A stretch of DNA of 34,157 bases from Nitrospira sp. Lineage in GTDB: Bacteria; Nitrospirota; Nitrospiria; Nitrospirales; Nitrospiraceae. Made by a program: the position numbers and the translations under genes. The notes under the pieces are model-generated. The model ran no database searches. It was not told the DNA's origin and saw nothing but the letters and a program-made list of their open reading frames with translations. The stretch is taken from assembly GCA_029881435.1 (NCBI GenBank), contig JAOUMR010000030.1:1-34157 (forward strand), given 5' to 3'. Positions 7,581-20,181 of this stretch are shown here, piece by piece. The stretch's first letter is position 1, and every line of letters starts with the position of its first letter.

Positions 7581-8231
7581 TTATTCAACTCCTTTCAGAT
7601 ACCGCCGAAACCATTTCCCCGCATGTTCTGCCACCTGTTCCAGCGTACCGGGCTCTTCAAAGAGGTGCGTTGCCCCGGGGACGATGATCATTTTCTTCTC
7701 ACAGGTCAGCAACTCATATGCTGCCTGGTTCATCTCAATCACCGGTTCATCGTGGCCTCCGACGATCAACAAGGTCGGAGCGATGACCGATGGCAGATAT
7801 GGTTCTGCCAGGTCCGGTCGCCCTCCTCGTGACACCACAGCCTTGATGTTCGACGGTTCCCGTGCTGCAGCCTGCAAAGCCGCTCCGGCGCCGGTGCTGG
7901 CTCCGAAATAGCCGATCTTCAGGTGCTGTGTCTGAGACTCTTTCTCTAGCCAGCCTTTCGCCAGCAACAACCGATCCGCCAGCAGATCGATATCGAACAC
8001 TTTGCGCCGATCATCCGCTTCCACTTTGGTCAGCAAATCAAGCAGCAAAGTGGCCAGCCCATTCTGTTGCAGGTGGCGGGCGACGAAATTGTTACGCGGA
8101 CTCAAGCGACCGCTCCCGCTTCCATGTGCAAAGACAACCACGCCGCGTGGACCAGCCGGGAGGCCGAGGATTCCTTCCAGGACAAGTTCCCCTTTTGTGA
8201 TCCTGACGCTGTGCTCATGTTGCGGCGTCAT
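7581..8231 (-). CDS. dienelactone hydrolase-like alpha/beta hydrolase
   Basis: A 216-aa cytoplasmic alpha/beta hydrolase. The oxyanion-hole loop is FAHGSGSGRLSPRN (about residues 34-47), the nucleophile is Ser112 in GYFGASTGAGAAL, the acid is Asp161 in GGHDEPV and the base is His189 in GATHLFEEPG. This subtype is often found fused or adjacent to phosphoribosyltransferases, and here it ends an operon containing nicotinate phosphoribosyltransferase, which suggests a role tied to nucleotide or NAD metabolism rather than aromatic degradation. Its start overlaps the stop of the pentapeptide gene (ATGA). The substrate is unknown. It converges with the DUF2442 remnant across 44 bases with no clear terminator. 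Confidence 0.85.
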   Translation of the reverse strand: MTPQHEHSVRITKGELVLEGILGLPAGPRGVVVFAHGSGSGRLSPRNNFVARHLQQNGLATLLLDLLTKVEADDRRKVFDIDLLADRLLLAKGWLEKESQTQHLKIGYFGASTGAGAALQAAAREPSNIKAVVSRGGRPDLAEPYLPSVIAPTLLIVGGHDEPVIEMNQAAYELLTCEKKMIIVPGATHLFEEPGTLEQVAEHAGKWFRRYLKGVE

Positions 8232-9658
8232 CGCACCTCTTTCTTAGGAGAACTGCAGGGCGATGGACGACTGAGTCCAGGCGGCAATTTGGTCTGGTCA
8301 TCGACACAGGCGGTATTGAGTTGTGTCTGCGTGAGGCCGGTGACGGTCGAGAGTATGGCGCCTTTGATGTTCGCACGACGCAAGTCCGCTGAGTCCAGCC
8401 GAGCGCCGCTCAGATCGGCTCCGGCCAGGGTCGTGTCCTGAAGGTTAGCTTCTTGAAAATTGGTCTGGGTTAAGTTGGAATAGCTGAAATTCGATCCGCG
8501 GAGATCCGCACCGACGAAATTGGCCTCTTCCAGATTGGATTTGTTGAATTGGGCGTGCCGGAGAGAGGATTTCGGAGCGTAGACTTCGCGCAAGTCACTG
8601 TTCGTAAAGTTGGTACGTACTCCCTTGGCACCGATAAGGACCGCGCGATTCAAATGGGCGTCGCGGAAGTCGGCGTCATCGAGCATGGCGTGATAGAGAA
8701 TGGCCATACGGAGATTCGCGGCGTTCGCGTTGGTTTTGACTAGCAGGGCTTCTTCTAGGTTGGCTCCTTCCAGGTCGGCCTTCTGCAGGGATGCGCCATG
8801 GAGGTTGGCGTACCGCAAATCTGTGCCGCGAAGGATGGCTTCCTTCAGGTTGGCCCCGCGCAGATTCGCTTCGTCCAGATAGGCGCTTTCTAAATCGGCT
8901 TCAACCAACCGGGTCCCATCAAGTCGGGCACGGTCTAACAGCGCGCCTTGAAGATTGGCACGAGACAGATTCGCATCGGTCAAGACCGTGCGGCGTAGGT
9001 CGGCGCCAGTCAGATCCGTGTTGACTAGGATCGCACCTTTCAGTGTCGCTCCGTAGAAATAGGCCTCGGAAAAATTGGCGTCAGTCAAGTCGGCAGAGGT
9101 AAGATCGGCTCCCTCCAGCTGAGCCCGCTCGAACGAGGCCTCATTCAACTTGGCGCCGATGAGAACGGTATCGAAAAGCGCAGCTTCGTCGCCGATGGCG
9201 CGTGAGAGATTCGCGCCTGGGAGTCGGGCACGGCGCAAATCGGCTCCAGAGAGGTTACCGTCTGCTAAGACTGCTCTCGTGAGGTCAACACCGGCGAGGC
9301 TGGCCTGGATCAGCGAGGTCTGCGACAGATTGGCCTGTCGCAAGACCGCGCCTTCAAGCTCAGCCCGTTCGAGATTGGCGCTTGCGAGGGCTGCGCGACT
9401 CAGGTCAGCCTGGCAGAGTTCTAGGCGCTTCGCAGTCGGGTTGCCTCGATACTCAACCCATCGTTCGTGAGAACGGACGAGGGCTTGCAACGTCTTGGCT
9501 GGTACGGGCCTCTTCTTGTAGAGGCTTTCGCAGAGAAGAGGAATGGAAGGCGAGGTTGGTTGGGAAGCTGAGGGATTGGTGGCCTCAGTCTCTGTGACGG
9601 CGAGTGCAATGAGGAGGACGATGCTCACACCGACGGTCGATATGGAGGGGCGCGTCAT
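8228..9658 (-). CDS. exported pentapeptide-repeat protein
   Basis: A 476-aa protein with an N-terminal signal peptide (hydrophobic VSIVLLIALAV, likely cleavage near TEA-T) and then dozens of A(D/N)Lxx pentapeptides from about residue 84 to 455, for example ADLRRARLPGANLSRA. Such repeats fold into a right-handed quadrilateral beta-helix. The 80 residues before the repeats contain two Cys (CESL, ELCQADL) that could form a disulfide. The function is unknown; export argues against the gyrase-protecting Qnr role. It overlaps both neighbours by ATGA, so it is made together with the NAD-salvage enzyme upstream and the hydrolase downstream. The DNA shows a matching 15-bp periodicity. Confidence 0.9.
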   Translation of the reverse strand: MTRPSISTVGVSIVLLIALAVTETEATNPSASQPTSPSIPLLCESLYKKRPVPAKTLQALVRSHERWVEYRGNPTAKRLELCQADLSRAALASANLERAELEGAVLRQANLSQTSLIQASLAGVDLTRAVLADGNLSGADLRRARLPGANLSRAIGDEAALFDTVLIGAKLNEASFERAQLEGADLTSADLTDANFSEAYFYGATLKGAILVNTDLTGADLRRTVLTDANLSRANLQGALLDRARLDGTRLVEADLESAYLDEANLRGANLKEAILRGTDLRYANLHGASLQKADLEGANLEEALLVKTNANAANLRMAILYHAMLDDADFRDAHLNRAVLIGAKGVRTNFTNSDLREVYAPKSSLRHAQFNKSNLEEANFVGADLRGSNFSYSNLTQTNFQEANLQDTTLAGADLSGARLDSADLRRANIKGAILSTVTGLTQTQLNTACVDDQTKLPPGLSRPSPCSSPKKEVR

Positions 9659-11010
9659 ATTGTGTCTCCTTTGATGTTAGAAGCTGCGTCGACTGCGTGA
9701 GCTAAACTCTGCAAAGCTGGAGAAATCTGAACCTCGTAGGCCGGCCCAGTCTCAAGGGTTCGCAGCGATTCCGGAAGCTGTCTCAGTTGCGCAGCCGTAT
9801 GGTTCCGCAGTTCGGCCAAGTCCGGCGATGAGGCAAAGCGGTAGCCTCCCTTCATCACGGATTGGAGCAGCGGTTCGTCAGGTAGTTGATCGGTGAGCGT
9901 CGTGATGATGTCATGATCTAAACGTCCATCGTCCGAATGATACCGATAGACCTGTTTGCGGCCGGGCCAGGTAGCCTTGCCCTCAGATCGTTTACGGCAA
10001 GGACGACCTAGATATTCTTGGAGTTTGTAGGCACAGTCCAGCGAAGGTGCATCTGCTGAGGTCGTCATCGCTGTTCCAACTGCGAAGCTGTCGATCGGTG
10101 CATGGTCTTGGGCCAAGTCTCTCAGGCGATATTCATCGAGGTTGCCGCTGGCGAGGATCAGCGCGTGGGACAATCCGCCTTCGTCCAAGATACGGCGGAC
10201 TTTTCGCGCATGGTCGGCGAGATCACCACTGTCTAATCGTACTCCTTTGACAGCGATGCCTTTGGCCTTTAGTCTCCGAGCCAATGGCACGACTTTGCCC
10301 GCGGCTGCTTCCGTGTCGTAGGTGTCGATCAGGAGGACGACGTTGTCCGGTTGCGTGTGGGCAAAGTGCTCGAAGGCGATGATTTCGTCCTCGTGGGCCT
10401 GCACGAACGAATGAGCCATGGTGCCGTACAGAGGAATGCCATAGACCATACCAGCCAGTACGGTTGCGGTTCCGGCAAAACCGGACAGGTAGCTGGCTCG
10501 CGCGGCGAGGAGACCGGCTTCGGCACCGTGCGCGCGGCGCAGCCCAAAATCGATGAGCGGCTTTCCTTCTGCGACCAGGACCGAGCGTGCTGCTTTGGAG
10601 GCCACCACGGTCTGAAAGTTCAACAGGTTCATGACACGGCTTTCCATGAGTTGGGCTTGTGGAAGCGGCGCGACGATCCTGAGGATTGGCTCGTGAGGAA
10701 AGAAGACCGTTCCTTCGGTCATTGCTTCCACATCTCCAGTAAACCGCAGGGTTTCCAGGTAGTGAAGGAGCCTCGAGCTAAACCACCCAGATTGATCCAG
10801 CCAGGCAAGTTCTTCCTGCGTCACCTGAAGCTCTGCGAGATAGTCCAGCACCTGTTCGAGACCAGCCGCTACTAAGAAGTTTCGGTGGGCAGGCAGTTTG
10901 CGGACGAAGAACTCGAACACGGCAGGCCCGTTCATTCCCTGTTCCAGGTAGGCCTGGGCCATCGTGAGCTCATACAGATCCGTCAGCAGGGCGCTGGTCG
11001 AGGGATTCAT
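9655..11010 (-). CDS. pncB: nicotinate phosphoribosyltransferase
   Basis: The 451-aa enzyme joins nicotinate and PRPP to form nicotinate mononucleotide, the second step of NAD salvage after nicotinamidase. Family signatures are LLTDLYELTMAQAYLEQGM at the N-terminus, FEFFVRKLPAHRNFLVAAGL, DFGLRRAHGAEAG (about 154-166), YGTMAHSFVQAHEDE with the conserved His200, and GVRLDSGDLADHARKVRRIL for the phosphoribosyl site. FAVGTAMTTSADAPSLDCAY is also typical. The length is normal for the shorter bacterial class. The start overlaps the pncA stop and the stop overlaps the pentapeptide start, both ATGA, giving tight coupling of the two NAD-salvage steps. Confidence 0.93.
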   Translation of the reverse strand: MNPSTSALLTDLYELTMAQAYLEQGMNGPAVFEFFVRKLPAHRNFLVAAGLEQVLDYLAELQVTQEELAWLDQSGWFSSRLLHYLETLRFTGDVEAMTEGTVFFPHEPILRIVAPLPQAQLMESRVMNLLNFQTVVASKAARSVLVAEGKPLIDFGLRRAHGAEAGLLAARASYLSGFAGTATVLAGMVYGIPLYGTMAHSFVQAHEDEIIAFEHFAHTQPDNVVLLIDTYDTEAAAGKVVPLARRLKAKGIAVKGVRLDSGDLADHARKVRRILDEGGLSHALILASGNLDEYRLRDLAQDHAPIDSFAVGTAMTTSADAPSLDCAYKLQEYLGRPCRKRSEGKATWPGRKQVYRYHSDDGRLDHDIITTLTDQLPDEPLLQSVMKGGYRFASSPDLAELRNHTAAQLRQLPESLRTLETGPAYEVQISPALQSLAHAVDAASNIKGDTI

Positions 11011-11588
11011 GCTTCAAGCATCTCCAATCGAACAGGCACGGCTCCCAGGCCGATCATCTCCTCTTCGGCGTGCCGACCGTCATCAGGCCGAAGATTGACT
11101 GCCTTGATGCCGTCCACCAACAAACAGACGTCATAGCCCATTGTCCGCGCGTCCTTGACCGAAGTCAGTACGCAATAGTCGGTCGCCAATCCGCCGACGA
11201 ACAGACGCTGCACACACAAGACTCGTAAACGACGATCCAAGCTCGTATTCTGGAACGCTGAGTAGGCTTCTTGGTCACGGTCGGTAGCCTTGTAAATAAT
11301 GATGGCCGATGACGGTATCGCAAACGACGACGGCGGTAGAGAACCGGGCGAACCGGCGACACAATGCGCAGGCCACGGCCCTCCTTGAGACACGAACGAG
11401 CAATGATCCGACGGGTGCCAATCACGCGTCAGAAAGACGGGAAGACTGCTCGCCTGAAACCGCTGAATATAGTTTTCCAGGATTGGAATTATTTCATCAC
11501 CACTGCTGATCTCGAGTGCTCCACCCGGCAGAAAATCGTTCTGAATGTCTGCGATGAGCAACGCATCGGAGGGAGTGAGAGCAATCAT
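11007..11588 (-). CDS. pncA: nicotinamidase (isochorismatase family)
   Basis: Nicotinamidase hydrolyses nicotinamide to nicotinate, the substrate of the next gene. The catalytic triad is visible: Asp14 in ADIQNDFLPGGAL, Lys100 in IIYKATDRDQEAYSAF and Cys139 in GGLATDYCVLTSVKDA. Metal ligands Asp56, His58 and His62 are in TRDWHPSDHCSF. I chose the internal ATG at 11588 (MIALTPSDALLIADIQ) because it fits the family N-terminus; the frame is open to a TTG at 11636 and ATG at 11633, adding up to 16 residues, and no start has a good ribosome-binding site. A weak start plus ATGA overlaps downstream would make it the head of the NAD-salvage sub-operon. Confidence 0.92.
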   Translation of the reverse strand: MIALTPSDALLIADIQNDFLPGGALEISSGDEIIPILENYIQRFQASSLPVFLTRDWHPSDHCSFVSQGGPWPAHCVAGSPGSLPPSSFAIPSSAIIIYKATDRDQEAYSAFQNTSLDRRLRVLCVQRLFVGGLATDYCVLTSVKDARTMGYDVCLLVDGIKAVNLRPDDGRHAEEEMIGLGAVPVRLEMLEA

Positions 11589-11680
11589 AGGGAGGCTGTA
11601 AGGAGTCAAGGAAGTGGATGACCCGTTGCTCATCAAATGTGTGGTGGACTCAACAGTTCATCAACTCGTTACCTAGGCAC

Positions 11681-12073
11681 TTATCGTGCCTGTTCTGACA
11701 GCAAGCGAATGTACGCCACGACATCCTGCATTTCCCCATCGGTGAGCTGTCCGCGCCACGCATGCATCGGGCTGAAGACGACGCCGTGCTCGATCGTCCG
11801 CAGTAATTGCTCATCGGATTTTAGGAACGATTGAAACCGTTGAAAATTGACTGGGGGGACTTTCAAGGAAGCGGCGACAGGTCCATCGCCTCGACCAGTA
11901 GGGCCATGACAGGTCTGACAGTGACGTTCATACACGGCTTTGCCCCGTACAAGGTCGGCAGGATAATCTTGAGCGTACAGAGGGGATATCACCGGACCGC
12001 TCACAATACAGATGCCGAGGAGCCCTGCTGCAAACAGCCGATGTCGTAGGTGCTGTCGCGGAGCTGTGAGCAT
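11681..12073 (-). CDS. monohaem c-type cytochrome
   Basis: A 130-aa exported electron carrier. A signal peptide (LFAAGLLGICIVSGPVIS, likely cleavage after YAQ) precedes one haem site, Cys52-Gln-Thr-Cys55-His56, followed by GPTGRGDGPVA. The likely axial Met is Met103 in VVFSPMHAW, and the C-terminal helix is TDGEMQDVVAYIRLLSE, as in class I cytochromes and cbb3/SorB-type carriers. It starts four bases after the FmdB gene, so they are co-transcribed. It probably carries electrons in the periplasm; the partner is not in the window unless it is the cupredoxin at 14073. Confidence 0.9.
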   Translation of the reverse strand: MLTAPRQHLRHRLFAAGLLGICIVSGPVISPLYAQDYPADLVRGKAVYERHCQTCHGPTGRGDGPVAASLKVPPVNFQRFQSFLKSDEQLLRTIEHGVVFSPMHAWRGQLTDGEMQDVVAYIRLLSEQAR

Positions 12074-12077
12074 GGTG

Positions 12078-12242
12078 TTAACTCTTCTTTGTGGTGTGAG
12101 CGATGAATGGGCTAAAAAGTTGCTGCAGCTTCTTGCTTCCGCAGGCCGGGCATGTGATATCGCCCGCTTCGTGTTCCTTCAACGTCACCACGATCAATGA
12201 TTCCTTTCCGCAATTGACACACTGATAGTCGTACATCGGCAT
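12078..12242 (-). CDS. FmdB-type zinc-ribbon small protein
   Basis: A 54-aa protein beginning MPMYDYQCVNCGKESL and continuing DITCPACGSKKLQQLFSPF. The four Cys (two CxxC knuckles) and the MPxYxYxC opening identify the FmdB/CxxC regulatory-protein family of small zinc ribbons. Four bases separate its stop from the cytochrome start, and 29 bases separate it from the Usp stop, so it belongs to the same operon. Family members are common beside stress and C1-metabolism genes, but their biochemical role is not established. Confidence 0.88.
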   Translation of the reverse strand: MPMYDYQCVNCGKESLIVVTLKEHEAGDITCPACGSKKLQQLFSPFIAHTTKKS

Positions 12243-12271: not shown

Positions 12272-13135
12272 TTATCCAGAAATCATGAGTGGATAGGTTC
12301 CCTGGTGCAAGAGGGCATGTGAAACGCTGCCGAGCACCATGCGGGTGATACCGCGGCGCCCGCGCGATCCCACGATGATCAGGTCCGTATTCGATGCCTT
12401 GGCTTGCTGCAGAATTCCATCAACCGGAGTGCCCAAGGTGGTCGCGACGCGGGTTTGGTAGTCATACTGTTTGAGCTTGGCGGCAATTTCCTCGAGGAAG
12501 TCCTTTCCCGTACGGAGAGAATGGGTTTCCATGTGCTCGGCCGAAACGGCATCTACCGGCCAGGGTGGCCTGGTATGGGGAAGGACGGTGAACAGGGTTA
12601 TCGTGGGCGGCTCACGAAAGGGTTTCTGTTGAAGGAAGGAGAGGGCATGCTCTGCATCATAGCTCCCTTGCAGGGGGAGCAAGATATGATGAAGTGCCTT
12701 CAAGGGGCCGGGAAGAATTAGTTTTGCGCCTGGTCCGTACGTGAGCACTCGGTGGGAGACACTTCCAACGAGCCGTTCCTTGATCGGTCCAAGGCCTCGG
12801 GCACCCAAAAGAATGAGGCCCACCTTGATCTGTTCAGACAACGCCACAATCTGATCCACCGGAGATCCGACGATCAGATGTCTCGTCACAGGTCCCACAT
12901 CCAAGGGCAGTAACGACACGATCCGATCCATCAAACGCGTCCCGTCGTCGCGCATGTTTCGCTCGACCGTTTCATACAGTTCCTGTGACACTTCCGGCAT
13001 CATCATCGGATAGGCTGGCCTAGGGACATCGAGCACGTGCAGGAGATGCAGTTCCTCGGCACGAGCGAGGTATTTGAGGGATCGCACCGCCTCATATGAG
13101 TTGTCGGAACCATCAACGGCGAGCAAGAGTTTCAT
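12272..13135 (-). CDS. tandem-domain universal stress protein
   Basis: A 287-aa cytoplasmic protein with two UspA folds. Domain 1 starts MKLLLAVDGSDNSYEAV and ends with the nucleotide loop LLGARGLGPIKERLVGS; domain 2 ends IVGSRGRRGITRMVLGS. Both loops fit G-2x-G-9x-G-S, the pattern of ATP-binding Usp proteins. The ATG at 13135 is chosen since the domain begins exactly there; the 30 extra codons upstream in frame are read from the neighbouring small gene's region and are Cys-rich and unlike Usp. It is the second gene of the minus-strand operon starting at the near-consensus sigma-54 site. Confidence 0.92.
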   Translation of the reverse strand: MKLLLAVDGSDNSYEAVRSLKYLARAEELHLLHVLDVPRPAYPMMMPEVSQELYETVERNMRDDGTRLMDRIVSLLPLDVGPVTRHLIVGSPVDQIVALSEQIKVGLILLGARGLGPIKERLVGSVSHRVLTYGPGAKLILPGPLKALHHILLPLQGSYDAEHALSFLQQKPFREPPTITLFTVLPHTRPPWPVDAVSAEHMETHSLRTGKDFLEEIAAKLKQYDYQTRVATTLGTPVDGILQQAKASNTDLIIVGSRGRRGITRMVLGSVSHALLHQGTYPLMISG

Positions 13136-13143
13136 AGTAGGCC

Positions 13144-13239
13144 TCACTGACAATCTGCAGGACAGAAGAAGACAAGGTAGATCACAATCGCGACACCTAA
13201 CCCCACAGCTCCCAGCAGAAGCCACTGTGCACGTGTCAT
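13144..13239 (-). CDS. 31-aa single-pass membrane peptide
   Basis: The peptide begins MTRAQWLLLGAVGLGVAI, forms one hydrophobic segment of about 20 residues, and ends CPADCQ with two Cys. A GGGGGG run lies about five bases before the ATG and can act as a ribosome-binding site. Its stop is eight bases before the Usp start, and the leftward sigma-54-like promoter lies just upstream, so it is well placed as the first gene of the operon. No family is recognised; it could be a membrane anchor or regulator, or a leader peptide. Confidence 0.6.
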   Translation of the reverse strand: MTRAQWLLLGAVGLGVAIVIYLVFFCPADCQ

Positions 13240-13269
13240 CGTTCCCCCCAATGCCTGTAGACGGTAATC

Positions 13270-13285
13270 AGCAAGTCCGATGCCC
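13270..13285 (-). promoter_or_regulatory. putative sigma-54 promoter facing left
   Basis: On the minus strand the sequence reads GGGCAT, five bases, TTGCT, against the sigma-54 consensus TGGCAC-N5-TTGCW. The GG and GC doublets have the required spacing (ten bases between them); two flanking bases differ. Transcription would start near 13259, about 20 bases before the 31-aa gene, leaving room for its ribosome-binding site. Confidence 0.5.
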
Positions 13286-13353
13286 GTATGTGACAGTGTG
13301 AACTGGGGCTGAAATAGAGCAGTGGAGAGTTGAGATTCGGGTAGATGACGCTT

Positions 13354-13387
13354 TCTGCTACAGGAGTCGAACGGCCGCTGTAGCAGA
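13354..13387. promoter_or_regulatory. 10-bp perfect inverted repeat between the divergent promoters
   Basis: TCTGCTACAG (13354-13363) and CTGTAGCAGA (13378-13387) form perfect arms around 14 bases. The centre is about 160 bp from the rightward predicted start and about 110 bp from the leftward one, the usual distance for an enhancer-binding activator of sigma-54. A smaller repeat, CATCAC-N10-GTGATG, lies at 13480-13501 next to the rightward -24 element. Function is inferred from position only. Confidence 0.5.
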
Positions 13388-13503
13388 GATCCCCTGCTTG
13401 AGGAGGCGGACCTATGATCGATAGCCGACCATGTAGGAGCAAACAACGTCAAATCTATGAATATCCCTGAGCCCTCGACCATCACGCACGGTCTTGTGAT
13501 GAG

Positions 13504-13519
13504 TGGCACCGCGTTTGCT
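13504..13519 (+). promoter_or_regulatory. sigma-54 promoter facing right
   Basis: TGGCAC (13504-13509), five bases, TTGCT (13515-13519): an exact match to the sigma-54 consensus TGGCAC-N5-TTGCW. The predicted transcription start is near 13530, directly before the AGGAGG box (13532-13537) of the usp gene at 13545. The promoter would need an activator ATPase bound upstream; the inverted repeat at 13354-13387 is the candidate site. Confidence 0.7.
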
Positions 13520-13544
13520 CAAATCGTAATCAGGAGGATCGTTC

Positions 13545-14048
13545 ATGGGGCGAGATACGAATCTCTTCAATGCCATCCTGGTTCCGGTTGATTTCTCTCC
13601 TTGCTCAGATCAGGCGTTTCGGGTGGCATGCCAGATGGCGCGTCTTTGCGGGGCGGCGATGCTGATCTTGCATGTGATTGATACCAGTGCCCTTGCCGCA
13701 TTCAATCGATTGGGATTGCTCGCCGTCCCGTCCGATGCGACGGCACAGCGCCGCCGGTTACGTCACCATGCTCGCTTGAATGTACGTCAATTGTTGGAGT
13801 CGAAGGTGGCTGAGACCGTGAAGGTCACTCGCATGATTGTGGAAGGGGCACCGTTCGTTGAAATTGCGAAAGTTGCACGCACGGGGAACATTGATTTGGT
13901 GGTGATGGGGAGCTACGGCGGCCGGTCCGGCAGCGTGGATAAGATTTTCTTCGGGAGCACAGCAGAAAAAGTCGTTCGCACGGCGGGTTGCCCGGTCTTG
14001 ACCGTTCCGATTCCGGTATCCGCTTCTCAACGGGGAGCGTCGCGTTGA
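13545..14048 (+). CDS. single-domain universal stress protein
   Basis: A 167-aa UspA-fold protein. It opens ILVPVDFSPCSDQAFRVA, the standard first strand and helix, and ends with the nucleotide loop VVMGSYGGRSGSVDKIFFGS and CPVLTVPI. The glycine loop is two residues longer than the usual G-2x-G-9x-G-S, so ATP binding may differ from its paralogues here. An AGGAGG box seven bases before the ATG fixes the start. It is the first gene after the consensus sigma-54 promoter and heads the rightward stress operon; the cupredoxin gene follows after 24 bases. Confidence 0.92.
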   Translation: MGRDTNLFNAILVPVDFSPCSDQAFRVACQMARLCGAAMLILHVIDTSALAAFNRLGLLAVPSDATAQRRRLRHHARLNVRQLLESKVAETVKVTRMIVEGAPFVEIAKVARTGNIDLVVMGSYGGRSGSVDKIFFGSTAEKVVRTAGCPVLTVPIPVSASQRGASR

Positions 14049-14072: not shown

Positions 14073-14504
14073 ATGACCCATGAGCAACATCGTGTGCGGT
14101 GGCGGTTGTTAGTAATGGTTCTTTCTGTGGCGTGCCTGGCCTGGATCTATGGCGGGATCCTTCTTGCGCAATCTGAACAGGTAGTGGATGTGACCATCAA
14201 GGATTATAAGTTCGTGACGAAGCAGAGTACGTTGCGACTGGGGTTCCCCACCGTCATCAAGGTACGGAATGAAGACGCGGAGCGACACGATTTTAGTTCA
14301 ACCATGTTTGAGGGGATTCCGACTCAGATCGAGAAGGACGGAGTCATCGTGTACGGGCGTGGTGTGGGAGGTGTCTTCCTCGACCCGAAACAGGAGGTAA
14401 CCATTCGATTTGACATGACACGGCCAGGTCGGCATGTCTTTCGATGCTCCATCCACCCGACGATGAGCGGCGAGTTACTTCTGCTCAGTGCGGAGGCAGT
14501 GTGA
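14073..14504 (+). CDS. exported cupredoxin-like protein
   Basis: A 143-aa protein with an N-terminal signal or anchor (LLVMVLSVACLAWIYGGILL) and a cupredoxin fold: VDVTIKDYKFVTKQSTLRL, VIKVRNEDAERHDFSS, then the C-terminal copper loop RHVFRCSIHPTMSGEL. Cys, His and Met in CSIHPTM plus the upstream His in ERHDF make a full set of type-1 copper ligands. It probably carries electrons in the periplasm. A GGGAGGAG box precedes the start. Its stop overlaps the GTG of the next usp gene. Confidence 0.85.
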   Translation: MTHEQHRVRWRLLVMVLSVACLAWIYGGILLAQSEQVVDVTIKDYKFVTKQSTLRLGFPTVIKVRNEDAERHDFSSTMFEGIPTQIEKDGVIVYGRGVGGVFLDPKQEVTIRFDMTRPGRHVFRCSIHPTMSGELLLLSAEAV

Positions 14505-15472
14505 CTTTGTCTGAAAGCGGACCGAGACTTCTTCTGGCGACCGACGGGTCGCAGGGATCGGCGGTTGCGGAGGATTATGCCTTTGCGCTGGCCCAATCAT
14601 GGGGTGCCTCGCTGAGCGTGATGAACGTGTTGGAGTGCCCCCCTGGGCTTGATCCGGAGAATCCCGTCAATCAACTGTATTTGACCGAGCTGATGAAACA
14701 GGCTACGAGCGAGCTGGTCGCGCTGAAAGCACGGGCGGTCGATCGCGGCATTTCTGTTCACACGCGGATTGCCACAGGTATCCCAAGCGAGGAAGTCCTT
14801 TCGGTGGCCACTGGGGAAGATCCGGATCTGATCGTCGTGGGCACGCGAGGGAAAACCGGTTTGGCCCATGTGTTGCTGGGAAGTACGGCAGAACGGATTA
14901 TTCGGGGGGCGCCCTGTCCGGTGCTGGCCGCGCGCGCTGAAAGACAAGGAAGGGAGCCGGTTGAGAAAAGCCGACGCGACCCTGCTGGTCTCGAGCGGAT
15001 TCTGGTGCCGGTCGATTTTTCCGACTGTTCGCTCGATGCGCTGGAATACGCAGCGCTGGTTGCGCAACGATCAAAAGCCTCTCTCAAACTTCTTCATGTC
15101 TTGGAACCAATTTCGTATGGATTGGACTTCACGCTCCCCCATAGGGCAAAGCGGGAATCGATCAAGGCAGGGCACACGAAACGGTTATCGGATCTCGTAT
15201 CCAGGCTTGCGACTGCCGGTGTCCCATCCGAACTCCTGATCATGGGCGGACTGCCGACTGATTCTATTCTCGATGCGGCTCGGACGCAGCCGGCTGACTT
15301 GATCGTGATGGGAACTCATGGACGCCGCGGCTTGTCCCACGCGTTATTCGGCAGTATTGCGGAGTCAGTCCTTCGGAAATCTTCGTGCCCTGTTCTGATG
15401 GTCCGGAGCCCGAAATTTCGCCCTGGCCATCGCCGTGTCCTTTCAGGACAATCCCGGCCAACCAACGTGTAA
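14501..15472 (+). CDS. tandem-domain universal stress protein
   Basis: A 323-aa protein with two UspA domains. Domain 1 begins RLLLATDGSQGSAVAEDYA and ends VVGTRGKTGLAHVLLGST; domain 2 begins RILVPVDFSDCSLDALEYA and ends VMGTHGRRGLSHALFGS. Both have the G-2x-G-9x-G-S/T ATP loop. The start is the GTG at 14501, which overlaps the cupredoxin stop (GTGA) and has a GGAGG box about five bases upstream; the in-frame ATG at 14444 lies inside the cupredoxin gene and would add unrelated residues. It shares the rightward operon with the cupredoxin and DUF2934 genes. Confidence 0.92.
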   Translation: MTLSESGPRLLLATDGSQGSAVAEDYAFALAQSWGASLSVMNVLECPPGLDPENPVNQLYLTELMKQATSELVALKARAVDRGISVHTRIATGIPSEEVLSVATGEDPDLIVVGTRGKTGLAHVLLGSTAERIIRGAPCPVLAARAERQGREPVEKSRRDPAGLERILVPVDFSDCSLDALEYAALVAQRSKASLKLLHVLEPISYGLDFTLPHRAKRESIKAGHTKRLSDLVSRLATAGVPSELLIMGGLPTDSILDAARTQPADLIVMGTHGRRGLSHALFGSIAESVLRKSSCPVLMVRSPKFRPGHRRVLSGQSRPTNV

Positions 15473-15486
15473 CCGAGGAGTGAGTC

Positions 15487-15711
15487 ATGCGAACGAGCGT
15501 CAAATCGGCCAGTAAAGGGAAAGCCAAATCCTCCTCGCTAGCGGGTGCAATTGGGAAGCCTATCGAGTTACCGGACGGAATGTGGGACCGCATCTCGCAG
15601 AAAGCCTACGAGCTGTGGGAGCAGCGAGGTTGCCAAGAAGGGAATGCACTCCGCGATTGGCTTGACGCAGAGGAAATCGTCATGGAAGAGATTCATGAAG
15701 CTCGCGAGTGA
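15487..15711 (+). CDS. DUF2934 family small protein
   Basis: A 74-aa protein with a basic, Ser/Lys-rich N-terminal 20 residues followed by the DUF2934 core: ISQKAYELWEQRGCQEGN then ALRDWLDAEEIVMEE. A CGAGGAG box precedes the ATG. The family consists of short helical proteins found in many environmental bacteria; no biochemical role is established. It overlaps the next gene by 17 bases, so the two are translationally coupled. Confidence 0.85.
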   Translation: MRTSVKSASKGKAKSSSLAGAIGKPIELPDGMWDRISQKAYELWEQRGCQEGNALRDWLDAEEIVMEEIHEARE

Positions 15712-17086
15712 CCAGGCGGCCGGGTTTTGGACTCCGAGACCTCCGTCCCTCGATGCGGTGCTCGCGCGGCTTGAATCGCTGTCGCGCAAGCCCGCATTTG
15801 CCCTGCAGCGGGAGATGGGGATGGCACGAGCCCTCAGACCCTATCTGGGAGTAGGGGCTGGGAGAATTGTCGCGCCGCTCGCACAAGAAACTGAACTCGC
15901 CAACCTCTCGCTCATCTGCGATTTCTATCCTGAAGACGGCCAGTTGACGCTCATCGAACAACTGAGGGATGTCATCACCGAACATATTCCAGATGAGGAA
16001 CGGCGGTGGCTCGATCCGCTGAAGCATTCTTATCTCGATCTGTTGGAACTAACCTCCGCACTGAAGACTGAGGAAACGCTTACAGTGCGGTCGCTTGGAG
16101 ATCGAACCTCGTACGTGGTGCCAGGCGTTCAATCCCTCAAGGATGCTGTGGTGGGACAGGTACTACTGACCCGTGTGATTCGTGACCCGGATGCCGGTAC
16201 ATCAGATAACGCGGTATGGTCCGGCAGCGGCATTATCCTGTCACCGGCTGATGCCAACGCGTTGCTCGCGATCACCACAGAATGGCGCCGGGAGATGGAG
16301 GTGAGTTCTGGGTCCTTTGGGTTAGGGGAGTGGCAGGAGTTCACCAAACGTTTTGGGTACATGCTGCTCTGGGCGTTCGCGCAACTCCGCATGGATGCGT
16401 TGGTGGACGCCGTCGTCCATATTCGCTATCGCCGTCCCGATGGCCAGCCCTATCTCTATGCCGTGGCCCTGTACGACCACCACGAGTATCGATTCTTTGT
16501 CGATGGGCTGTCCGAGATGAAGGAGCTTGAGTCGGAGAAGACGGCGTCTTCGGCTGGAAGACAAGGCCCAGCTGGAGCGTTCCCATCAGCGCGCACGTGG
16601 GTCCAGCGGGATGGAAACGGAGGGTCCGACCGTATTGTCGCCAGAGTGACGTTAACGTCGTCTCAGCTGATGGTGGAATGCGACGGACCTGAGCGGCTCG
16701 ACCGGATCAAACATCGACTGGCCGCTACGTTTGGGTTTTCACTGCATTTCCGCGATGAGACGCTCGTGCCACCGGTCCGGCAACTCTCGATAGCCGAGCT
16801 CATGTCCGATGAACCGCCCACGTTGGTCGTGATGGGGGAAGAAGACCGTAGGCTGCTCAACCAGTTTCTGGAGAAAGCCTACCTGGAGTGGTCGGATCAG
16901 CCTCATCTCGCGTTGGGTGCTCAGACCCCTCGACATGCGGCTGCGTCTTCGGCTTTGCGGGGGAAGGTGGGTGAGTTGATCGAGGAAATGGAGCAGCATG
17001 ATCTGGGCCATCAACGATGTGGCCAACGTGCCTTCAATTATAATCGTCTTCGTGGCCATGTAGGATTGGAGGAAAAGCCTGAGTGA
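15695..17086 (+). CDS. 463-aa protein of unknown function, coupled to DUF2934
   Basis: I do not recognise a full-length family. The start at 15695 (MKLASDQAAGFWTPRPP) lies inside the end of the DUF2934 gene, eight bases after a GGAAGAG box. There is no signal peptide or membrane segment. The N-terminal third is helical and acidic, the middle has a beta-rich block (VVHIRYRRPDGQPYLYAVAL), and residues about 400-463 contain LEWSDQPHLALGAQTPRHAA followed by a helix and LRGHVGLEEKPE. That end recalls the 'W-D-x-P...LGGxTPREA' pattern found in SEC-C/DUF2384-type toxin-binding or accessory domains, but the resemblance is weak. Its placement between usp genes and PPi-PFK suggests a stress-related role. 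Confidence 0.7.
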   Translation: MKLASDQAAGFWTPRPPSLDAVLARLESLSRKPAFALQREMGMARALRPYLGVGAGRIVAPLAQETELANLSLICDFYPEDGQLTLIEQLRDVITEHIPDEERRWLDPLKHSYLDLLELTSALKTEETLTVRSLGDRTSYVVPGVQSLKDAVVGQVLLTRVIRDPDAGTSDNAVWSGSGIILSPADANALLAITTEWRREMEVSSGSFGLGEWQEFTKRFGYMLLWAFAQLRMDALVDAVVHIRYRRPDGQPYLYAVALYDHHEYRFFVDGLSEMKELESEKTASSAGRQGPAGAFPSARTWVQRDGNGGSDRIVARVTLTSSQLMVECDGPERLDRIKHRLAATFGFSLHFRDETLVPPVRQLSIAELMSDEPPTLVVMGEEDRRLLNQFLEKAYLEWSDQPHLALGAQTPRHAAASSALRGKVGELIEEMEQHDLGHQRCGQRAFNYNRLRGHVGLEEKPE

Positions 17087-17242: not shown

Positions 17243-18490
17243 ATGACGGAGCAGCGAACAACAGTCGGTATTCTCGTCGGTGGGGGGCCGGCTCCTGGAA
17301 TCAATAGCGTGATCGGCGCAGCCACGATTCGCAGTATTCTTGGGGGCTCGGACGTCCTCGGGATCATCGAAGGGTTCAGGTGGCTCATGGAAGGGGGCAC
17401 CGGACAAGTACGGCCGCTCTCGATTGAAGAGATTAGCCGAATCCATTTTTGGGGCGGATCCTATTTGGGGACCTCCCGGGCCAACCCGACGAAAAGTGTC
17501 GAGTTGCTCGACAACGTCCTATTCTCGCTGTCGAGGCTCGGCGTCACGCGTTTGATGACGATCGGTGGGGATGACACCGCATTTTCAGCTATGAAACTGG
17601 AGGAGCGATCGAGGGGTCGTCTGCAAGTCGTTCACGTTCCCAAGACGATCGACAACGATCTGGATCTTCCTTATGGTATTCCCACGTTCGGGTTTCAGAC
17701 CGCCCGTCACATCGGGGTCGAGATTGTGAAGAATCTCATGGTTGACGCTCGCACGACATCACGCTGGTACTTGGTTGTGACCATGGGGCGCAAGGCCGGG
17801 CATCTGGCATTGGGTATCGGGAAGGCGGCCGGTGCCACGCTGACGATCATTCCGGAAGAGTTTGGAGACCGTCCGGTGAGGCTCCAACGGGTCGTGGATC
17901 TCTTGATAGGGGCCATCATCAAGCGTCGGGAACAGGGTCTAGCCGATGGAGTAGCGGTGTTGGCAGAAGGGTTGATCGAAATTCTTGATCCTCATGATCT
18001 GGGTGGCTTGGAACATGTTGAGAGAGACGAGCACGGTCATATACGCATGACCGAAGTGGATGTGGGCGACGTCTTGCGGCGGGAACTGACGAAGCAGCTT
18101 GACTCGTTGGGCTTGTCTACGACGCTTGTGGCGAAGAACGTCGGATATGAGCTCCGTTGCGCCGATCCGATCCCATACGATATCGAGTATACGCGTGATC
18201 TTGGATATTGCGCCGCGCAGTATCTATTGGACGGGGGAACGTCGGCCATGGTCTCGATTCAGAATGGACGGTTCACGCCAATATCCTTTAAACAGATGGT
18301 GGATTCCTCCACCAGACGAACCAAGGTCAGGATGGTGGATATCGATTCACAGTCCTACCAGATCGCTCGGCAATACATGATTCGGCTCACGAAGGATGAT
18401 CTAAGCAATCCGGACCTGCTGGGTCGATACGCTGCGTTGAGCGGCCTGTCCAGAGAAGTGTTCACAGAACGGTTCAGCGCAGCGCACTGA
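17243..18490 (+). CDS. pfp: 6-phosphofructokinase, PPi-dependent type
   Basis: A 415-aa phosphofructokinase with the family opening VGILVGGGPAPGINSVIG. The donor-determining residues are of the pyrophosphate type: GGDDT at 108-112 (ATP enzymes have GGDGS) and PKTIDND at 133-139 (ATP enzymes have GTIDND). It should therefore convert fructose 6-phosphate and PPi to fructose 1,6-bisphosphate reversibly, saving ATP. The later motifs MGRKAGHLALGIGKAAGA and IIPEEF also fit. An AGGGAG box precedes the ATG. Its place among usp genes supports use under energy limitation. Residues outside the donor site were not compared, so ATP use cannot be fully excluded. Confidence 0.88.
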   Translation: MTEQRTTVGILVGGGPAPGINSVIGAATIRSILGGSDVLGIIEGFRWLMEGGTGQVRPLSIEEISRIHFWGGSYLGTSRANPTKSVELLDNVLFSLSRLGVTRLMTIGGDDTAFSAMKLEERSRGRLQVVHVPKTIDNDLDLPYGIPTFGFQTARHIGVEIVKNLMVDARTTSRWYLVVTMGRKAGHLALGIGKAAGATLTIIPEEFGDRPVRLQRVVDLLIGAIIKRREQGLADGVAVLAEGLIEILDPHDLGGLEHVERDEHGHIRMTEVDVGDVLRRELTKQLDSLGLSTTLVAKNVGYELRCADPIPYDIEYTRDLGYCAAQYLLDGGTSAMVSIQNGRFTPISFKQMVDSSTRRTKVRMVDIDSQSYQIARQYMIRLTKDDLSNPDLLGRYAALSGLSREVFTERFSAAH

Positions 18491-18539: not shown

Positions 18540-19397
18540 ATGAAGATTCTGGCGGCGACGGATGGCTCAAAATACGGTAGATGGGCGATTGAATGGTTGG
18601 CAGACGTGCCGTTTATCGTGCAGCCGGTTGTTCGTGTCCTGCATGTTGTCGACGTGGCCAGTGTTCGGGCTCCATTCATGGTCCAACCGATCGGTGTCGG
18701 GGCGGTGCGCTATGTCCAGTCGGAAGTAAACCGGATGGAGAAGGCGGCCAAGGTGGCCAAAGAAGAGTCGGTCGCCTTGCTGGCCAAGTTAGGCTTGAGT
18801 GGAGGGGTCACGGTAGAGCGAGGCGCTGTGGCCAGGACAATCATGAAATATGCGCAGCGTGGGGCGACCCTTCTATCGATCGGCTCTCGTGGACTGGATG
18901 CCTTAGATCGCTTCATGCTCGGCAGTGTCTCCAATCACGCCATCCACCACGCACCGTGTTCTGTCCTTGTGGTGAAAGAGCGTCCTCGTCCTGTCAGACA
19001 CGTCGTTCTAGCGATCGACGGGTCGGCTGCGTCTGACAAGGCTCTTCGGTTTCTCATGCGCCAAATCAATTCAACACCCGATGCTCCGGATCGCGAACCG
19101 GTGCTGGTAACCGTGGTGCACGCGATGCCGTACTTGAAGTATCCAGAGGTCAGAGAGGCTGGAAAACGATTGATGCGGCGATATGGAGATAAGCTTGCGA
19201 GCTCGGGCTTCCAGATTCGGGAGGCCCTGAGGCTAGGAAAACCGGCAGAGGAAATTCTGACCGTGGCTAAACAGGAGAAGGCTGATCTGATTGTAACCGG
19301 AGCCAAAGGGTTTGGCGCGATCCGTCGCGTACTGCTCGGCAGCGTGTCCACCCGTGTCGTTCAACATGCCCATTGTGGGGTGCTGGTGGTTCGCTGA
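18540..19397 (+). CDS. tandem-domain universal stress protein
   Basis: A 285-aa protein with two UspA domains. Domain 1 begins MKILAATDGSKYGRWAIEWL and ends SIGSRGLDALDRFMLGS; domain 2 begins HVVLAIDGSAASDKALRFL and ends VTGAKGFGAIRRVLLGS. Both loops have the ATP-binding spacing. It resembles the leftward usp at 12272 in layout (methionine-lysine start, short linker), so the two are probably paralogues. The ribosome-binding site is weak (GAGGGATAG about eight bases upstream). It lies 49 bases after the PPi-PFK stop and is likely in the same transcript. Confidence 0.92.
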   Translation: MKILAATDGSKYGRWAIEWLADVPFIVQPVVRVLHVVDVASVRAPFMVQPIGVGAVRYVQSEVNRMEKAAKVAKEESVALLAKLGLSGGVTVERGAVARTIMKYAQRGATLLSIGSRGLDALDRFMLGSVSNHAIHHAPCSVLVVKERPRPVRHVVLAIDGSAASDKALRFLMRQINSTPDAPDREPVLVTVVHAMPYLKYPEVREAGKRLMRRYGDKLASSGFQIREALRLGKPAEEILTVAKQEKADLIVTGAKGFGAIRRVLLGSVSTRVVQHAHCGVLVVR

Positions 19398-19503: not shown

Positions 19504-20181
19504 ATGTCAGCACTACCGAAGATCGACCAGGACTCACTCCCTGATCGTTTGGTGACAGGGCTTTCAAAAATCGGTTTGGCGATGAAGAGCCGAACCTGGA
19601 GGCGAAAGGGACGACAAGGCATTGGCCCCCTACAAATCCAAGTGCTGACGTTTCTCCGGTCTCGTCCGAACCATTCGGCGACCGTTTCGACAATTGCTCG
19701 GGAACTCTCCGTCAAGCTGCCCACGGCCTCTGAGGTCATCCGAACCCTTGAACAAAAGCGGTTGGTCAGACGGCGACGCCGTGAAGTCGACAACCGTGTT
19801 GTGACCGTGCATCTGACCGCACTGGGGGCTAAAGCAGGTCATGTGGAAAACCGATGGCCTGAGATTTTGGCGTCAGCGACCGACAATCTGTCGACGCAAG
19901 AACAGGTCGCCCTTCTGACGGCGCTTGTGAAACTGATTCGCGCGCTTCAGTTACAAGGAGAAATTCAAGCCGCGCGGATGTGTATTTCCTGTGAACACTT
20001 CAGCCCACATGCACATGGGGAATCAGATTTGCCTCATCACTGTGGTTTCTACAACGTCGCATTTGGCGATGAGGACTTGCGCCTTGATTGCCCGGAATAT
20101 GTGGAAACTTCCGAGGTGGATCCTCGCCAGATGGCCAATTCTTCTGAGGAGGCGAAGCCGGCCCAATCTGCTCTGGTCTGA
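19504..20181 (+). CDS. MarR-family regulator with a Cys/His-rich C-terminal extension
   Basis: A 225-aa winged-helix regulator. The MarR core runs from about residue 40 (IGPLQIQVLTFLRSRP) through the recognition region (KLPTASEVIRTLEQKRLVRR) and wing (RRREVDNRVVTVHLTALG). After residue 158 comes an extension not found in classical MarR: C160 and C163 (MCISCEHF), His169 and His171, the PHHC at 177-180, and C196 in RLDCPEY. Four Cys plus several His could bind zinc, iron or an Fe-S cluster, so it may sense metal or redox state. Tails of this pattern occur in a subset of MarR proteins. Likely targets are itself and the adjacent usp genes. Confidence 0.85.
   Translation: MSALPKIDQDSLPDRLVTGLSKIGLAMKSRTWRRKGRQGIGPLQIQVLTFLRSRPNHSATVSTIARELSVKLPTASEVIRTLEQKRLVRRRRREVDNRVVTVHLTALGAKAGHVENRWPEILASATDNLSTQEQVALLTALVKLIRALQLQGEIQAARMCISCEHFSPHAHGESDLPHHCGFYNVAFGDEDLRLDCPEYVETSEVDPRQMANSSEEAKPAQSALV

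Follow-up and report, generated by a model that had tools for sequence, protein, structure and literature searches.

We analysed a 34,157-nt stretch of a Nitrospira sp. genome (contig JAOUMR010000030.1; hereafter the window) and found that the interval 13240-13544 is, judged by conservation, almost certainly a divergent promoter region consisting of two sigma-54 promoters and a shared enhancer. Taken together, the results argue with high probability for a sigma-54 regulon in which one enhancer serves two divergent promoters; its signal is likely a shortage of oxygen or of respiratory energy. An earlier first-pass annotation had described the interval by itself; we confirm that description, which understated the matter, as the genome holds further copies of the palindrome and a probable inducer can be named.

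The rightward promoter, TGGCAC-N5-TTGCT (TGGCACcgcgtTTGCT; 13504-13519, + strand), is an exact match to TGGCAY-N5-TTGCW. It ends 25 bases before the ATG of a universal stress protein (Usp) gene at 13545, and its predicted start lies near 13530. The leftward promoter, GGGCAT-N5-TTGCT (GGGCATcggacTTGCT; 13270-13285, - strand), retains the doublets and TTGCT; its predicted start is near 13259, 12 bases from the C of the -12 element, and the ATG of a gene for a 31-aa peptide (13239) follows 20 bases on. A perfect 10-bp inverted repeat with a spacer of 14 nt, TCTGCTACAG (13354-13363) and CTGTAGCAGA (13378-13387), is located between the promoters. The right predicted start lies about 160 bp downstream of its centre and the left one 111 bp in the opposite direction; we propose the repeat as the activator-binding site common to both promoters. 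The first-pass annotation had reported these three elements, i.e. an exact site before usp, a leftward site with intact doublets and spacing starting about 20 bases before the 31-aa gene, and a repeat at enhancer distance from both, and each of them stands. By itself an exact match to the sigma-54 consensus carries little weight, TGGCACN5TTGCW occurring 11 times in the 3.72-Mb genome (206 contigs) vs 6 times for the reversed pattern. What settles the promoter reading is the conservation of both GG-N10-GC sites, not the single exact match. Sigma-70 elements, named in advance as evidence that would speak against sigma-54, were dismissed after a scan of 13100-13600 that yielded neither a sigma-70-like site nor a terminator.

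Conservation was assessed by a DNA search of 79 genomes of the genus Nitrospira, which matched the locus in 69; the intervals were fetched, scanned and aligned with MAFFT. Locus L027 was excluded from this set as a tandem copy misled the parsing. It belongs to a region (G025:C13:146383-148588) in which the island promoter region and usp are tandemly duplicated and the palindrome is kept in both copies. Every readable interval of the genus carries both sigma-54 sites with doublets and spacing intact, the leftward one conserved as NGGCAY-N5-TTGCT, and the doublets are kept in relatives while the flanking sequence drifts. The T of TGGCAY is often absent from the leftward -24 element across loci, as in the window. 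From the right site to the usp ATG the distance is mostly about 41 bp. The left site is followed by the 31-aa gene after about 45 bp; where that gene is missing or unrecognised, the next gene lies farther off. Only one other block between the promoters is conserved in the genus alignment, TG.CGC.TTCTGCYACAG-N14-CTGTRGCAGAG..CCCC, which corresponds to 13345-13394 of the window and surrounds the repeat. Both promoters are present in 66/66 loci with an automatically scored palindrome, a scoring that left out two loci with a 15-nt spacer. Among the organism-named loci the palindrome was found in 45/51, N. moscoviensis included, and all 45 of these have both promoters. The doublets and the repeat are conserved in other genera of the family as well, so that the scan of relatives for both sites and the repeat, set beforehand as the test on which the promoter reading could fail, came out in its favour.

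The predicted left operon (all genes on the - strand) begins with the gene for the 31-aa single-span membrane peptide (13144-13239), which by its sequence is a real gene: differences among its 48 full-length homologues in the genus concentrate at third codon positions, and one homologue occurs in another genus. The peptide ends in CPxDC. It is followed by a Usp with two Usp domains (12272-13135; PF00582 in two stretches), a 54-aa zinc-ribbon protein that is FmdB-like by eye from its translation (12078-12242; 38/51 named loci), a cytochrome c (11681-12073; PF13442/PF00034), a nicotinamidase-like protein of the isochorismatase family (11007-11636; PF00857) whose best NCBIfam match, bifunctional nicotinamidase, is under its cut-off, a nicotinate phosphoribosyltransferase (9655-11010; NF006696, 651 bits, above cut-off), a pentapeptide-repeat protein (8228-9658; PF00805) and an alpha/beta hydrolase (7581-8231; PF00561/PF01738). 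The predicted right operon (+ strand) encodes a Usp (13545-14048; PF00582), a cupredoxin-like protein (14073-14504; PF13473; 40/51 named loci), a second Usp with two Usp domains (14444-15472; PF00582 in two stretches), a conserved protein (15545-17086; 44/51 named loci) that matched no family in Pfam or NCBIfam, a PPi-dependent phosphofructokinase (17243-18490; NF041103, 637.6 bits, above cut-off), a further Usp with two Usp domains (18540-19397; PF00582) and a MarR-family regulator (19504-20181; PF01047). Homologues suggest that the reading frame at 15545-17086 starts at an ATG near 15695; its product is encoded in the right operon in every locus where it was seen. The counts of eight genes to the left and seven to the right given by the first-pass annotation match the open reading frames. 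Membership of the last right gene, marR, is doubtful, as it was found in 3/51 named loci, with limited flanks.

The palindrome recurs elsewhere. A plain repeat pattern with three mismatches allowed gave no excess over the control in the own genome, and we therefore used a weighted model of the conserved block (R1), built from sequence only and trained on a set including the window site and both sites on contig 63. In the own genome R1 returned the window site (E=2.5e-12, itself in the model), the two contig 63 sites, likewise in the training set, and two sites on contig 183 that were not (E of 1e-4 and a weak 0.07). Within the genus 74/76 genomes have a match at E<=0.1; in the phylum 76/296 genomes match at E<=0.01, all but two from the same family, with ten genera represented. 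At 21 of the 24 palindromes outside the island a sigma-54-like site lies 70-95 bp off, facing away from the repeat; among random positions of these loci the share is 3.6%. For this pairing the nominal P of 1e-27 overstates independence because the 24 sites fall into about four orthologous groups, and we claim no helical phasing of the distance from palindrome to promoter. Since a matching activator site thus stands before other sigma-54-like promoters, the palindrome and its sigma-54 site very likely mark a regulon of which the island is one unit. The earlier suggestion of one activator for both operons agrees with this spacing and with the finding that, apart from the promoters themselves, one palindrome is all that is conserved in the interval.

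Several further operons are predicted members. On contig 63 the genes for a cytochrome c, a DmsE-family decaheme cytochrome and an MtrB/PioB porin make up an outer-membrane electron conduit; this MtrA/MtrB-type operon (L119:4615-8390) has a palindrome and a sigma-54-like site on both sides. Contig 183 carries a cytochrome c' gene followed by RND exporter genes, and also TolC with an ABC exporter. In relatives we found alpha-glucan phosphorylase and acetate kinase together with, by eye, a trehalose-synthase-like glycosyltransferase and a phosphoketolase-like reading frame (L165), and TolC, GlgX and an alternate F1 ATPase beta subunit (L174). The island of G128, which we take to be Ca. N. defluvii, runs on into formate dehydrogenase subunits and FocA, and that of G300 continues with Hsp20, a sulfhydrogenase-like beta subunit and, by eye, additional [NiFe] hydrogenase subunits. 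A strong palindrome (E=7e-10) precedes a gene of the animal-haem-peroxidase family in G016 (L160:4879-6624); no counterpart turned up in the other genomes examined.

Two other readings of the palindrome were weighed. A perfect 10-bp stem might form an RNA hairpin or a terminator, a reading that is largely refuted and that we consider highly improbable: the repeat is upstream of both predicted starts so that neither operon transcribes it, covariation did not exceed that of shuffled alignments, and neither a terminator-like site nor an Rfam match was found. With both -24 elements downstream of it, no transcription from either promoter and no RNA covariation, the palindrome behaves as a protein site. 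The protein might have nothing to do with sigma-54, being a repressor or some other regulator, and the sigma-54 matches would then be incidental; a symmetric operator is the kind used by many regulators, and the right gene set ends with a MarR gene. However, the palindrome is far upstream of both starts, GG-N10-GC sites accompany it in all 45 palindrome-bearing named loci and at most of its other places, and the available loci show no conservation of MarR, which makes this reading very improbable too.

Under the favoured sigma-54 reading, transcription is inferred from the sequence to start at both sigma-54 sites. An AAA+ sigma-54 activator would bind the palindrome between the promoters and, by analogy with the way its family works, would open both by DNA looping. 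This would switch on the 31-aa membrane peptide, Usp, cytochrome c and NAD salvage on the left and Usp proteins, cupredoxin and PPi-phosphofructokinase on the right, and the regulon would favour PPi-driven glycolysis, hold NAD up and add alternative electron routes.

The signal is likely a low oxygen supply or a loss of energy from respiration. In N. marina kept at about 5.6 uM O2, UspA proteins were raised, among the largest changes and beside co-induced clusters, as were formate dehydrogenase, group 3b hydrogenase and an N-type ATPase (PMC8115632), and the genes of the predicted regulon are of the same kinds as these proteins. The authors of that proteome proposed a regulatory role for UspA itself (PMC8115632); we infer that a common sigma-54 enhancer is the simpler account. 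The link to N. marina is an indirect one, as the comparison is by gene kind and the formate dehydrogenases of N. marina and N. defluvii are divergent (PMC8115632). The same sigma-54 circuit could also answer another signal, such as general starvation, nitrite exhaustion, or metal or envelope stress. Usp proteins respond to many stresses, and several palindromes stand before exporters (TolC, ABC, RND) and one before the haem peroxidase. Against this, a limit on respiration would suit the presence of genes for formate dehydrogenase, hydrogenase, N-ATPase, glycogen fermentation and an electron conduit, and N. marina responds to low O2 by raising the Usp, dehydrogenase, hydrogenase and ATPase proteins named above, so that a different signal is possible but rather unlikely.

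Compared with known systems, the island shares with NtrC-family/sigma-54 regulation the GG-N10-GC promoters, an inverted-repeat site 100-160 bp upstream of the predicted starts and a genome with many activator genes, but differs in using one site for two divergent promoters. NifA of microaerobic rhizobia is likewise an example of oxygen-linked sigma-54 control; however, we saw neither its nitrogen-fixation targets nor its TGT-N10-ACA site here. DosR, which governs the mycobacterial dormancy regulon, is a NarL-type regulator with its own palindrome and without sigma-54. Its regulon resembles the island in comprising several Usp proteins, a phosphofructokinase and a nicotinate phosphoribosyltransferase, as well as Hsp20, which one relative of the island has, and in its induction by oxygen shortage, only proposed for Nitrospira. 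In contrast to DosR targets, the island has a different palindrome beside sigma-54 promoters. The sigma-54 activator CbrB of Pseudomonas recognises inverted half-sites TGTTAC / GTAACA spaced 12-16 nt (PMC6296734), a geometry resembling TGCTACAG-N14-CTGTAGCA of the island, whose half-sites, however, read TGYYACA / TGTRGCA and do not match the CbrB subsites. Moreover, CbrAB has been described as exclusive to pseudomonads, with targets that concern carbon limitation (PMC6296734). The Usp, phosphofructokinase and NAD-salvage genes lie in the two operons of the island, and their common site suggests co-regulation; in the papers searched, neither these targets nor the palindrome sequence is described under sigma-54.

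About 22 sigma-54 activators with full PF00158 domains are encoded in the own genome, implying the presence of rpoN. Two activator domains (C151:13737-14238 and C42:591-1037) are each split in two pieces, suggesting frameshifts or assembly errors. The two activators near the contig 183 palindrome in the cytochrome c'/RND cluster are near-universal in the genus; the palindrome-positive genome G029, 99% complete, lacks both, and palindrome-negative genomes have them, so that neither is likely to be the regulator. In G022 (L168) a 338-aa activator directly precedes a palindrome; it was rejected as general regulator since the matching place in the own genome has no activator. The own activators, three excluded, were then profiled against palindrome-positive G029 and G045 and palindrome-negative G030, G223, G227, G328 and G149. 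About nine activators are common to the own genome and G029. The best profile was that of an activator on contig 150 (C150:12368-13705, equal to L372:4369-5706), present in all positives and absent from 4/5 negatives. Its N-terminal receiver looks degenerate (pseudo-receiver) and its HTH is strongly conserved; its neighbours in the own genome are, by eye, a truncated-globin-like protein, a cupredoxin-type protein and a cytochrome c. This protein is a tentative candidate, at below even chance, and is no more than a lead given the small sample and the three excluded activators. Whether one dedicated sigma-54 activator and one palindrome run the low-oxygen/energy-loss programme of Nitrospiraceae, as a sigma-54 counterpart of the DosR regulon, we consider evenly balanced; such a programme would cover Usp, PPi glycolysis, NAD salvage, the MtrAB-type conduit, formate dehydrogenase, hydrogenase, fermentation and N-ATPase, with the contig 150 pseudo-receiver activator as candidate.

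Sigma-54 enhancer regulons are known as a kind; the regulon described here, its motif and the way it combines Usp with alternative-energy genes are absent from the papers searched. Literature on sigma-54 with Usp or with Nitrospira yielded nothing on this regulon, nor did the literature searched describe a regulator for the switch of Nitrospira to low-oxygen survival. Nitrospira are key nitrite oxidisers, comammox organisms among them. Across the family Nitrospiraceae the binding motif provides a ready list of target operons, and the regulon offers a mechanism for the published low-oxygen proteome of N. marina, for which a regulatory role of UspA had been suggested. It would place the outer-membrane electron conduit under one directly testable switch together with formate use and hydrogenase.
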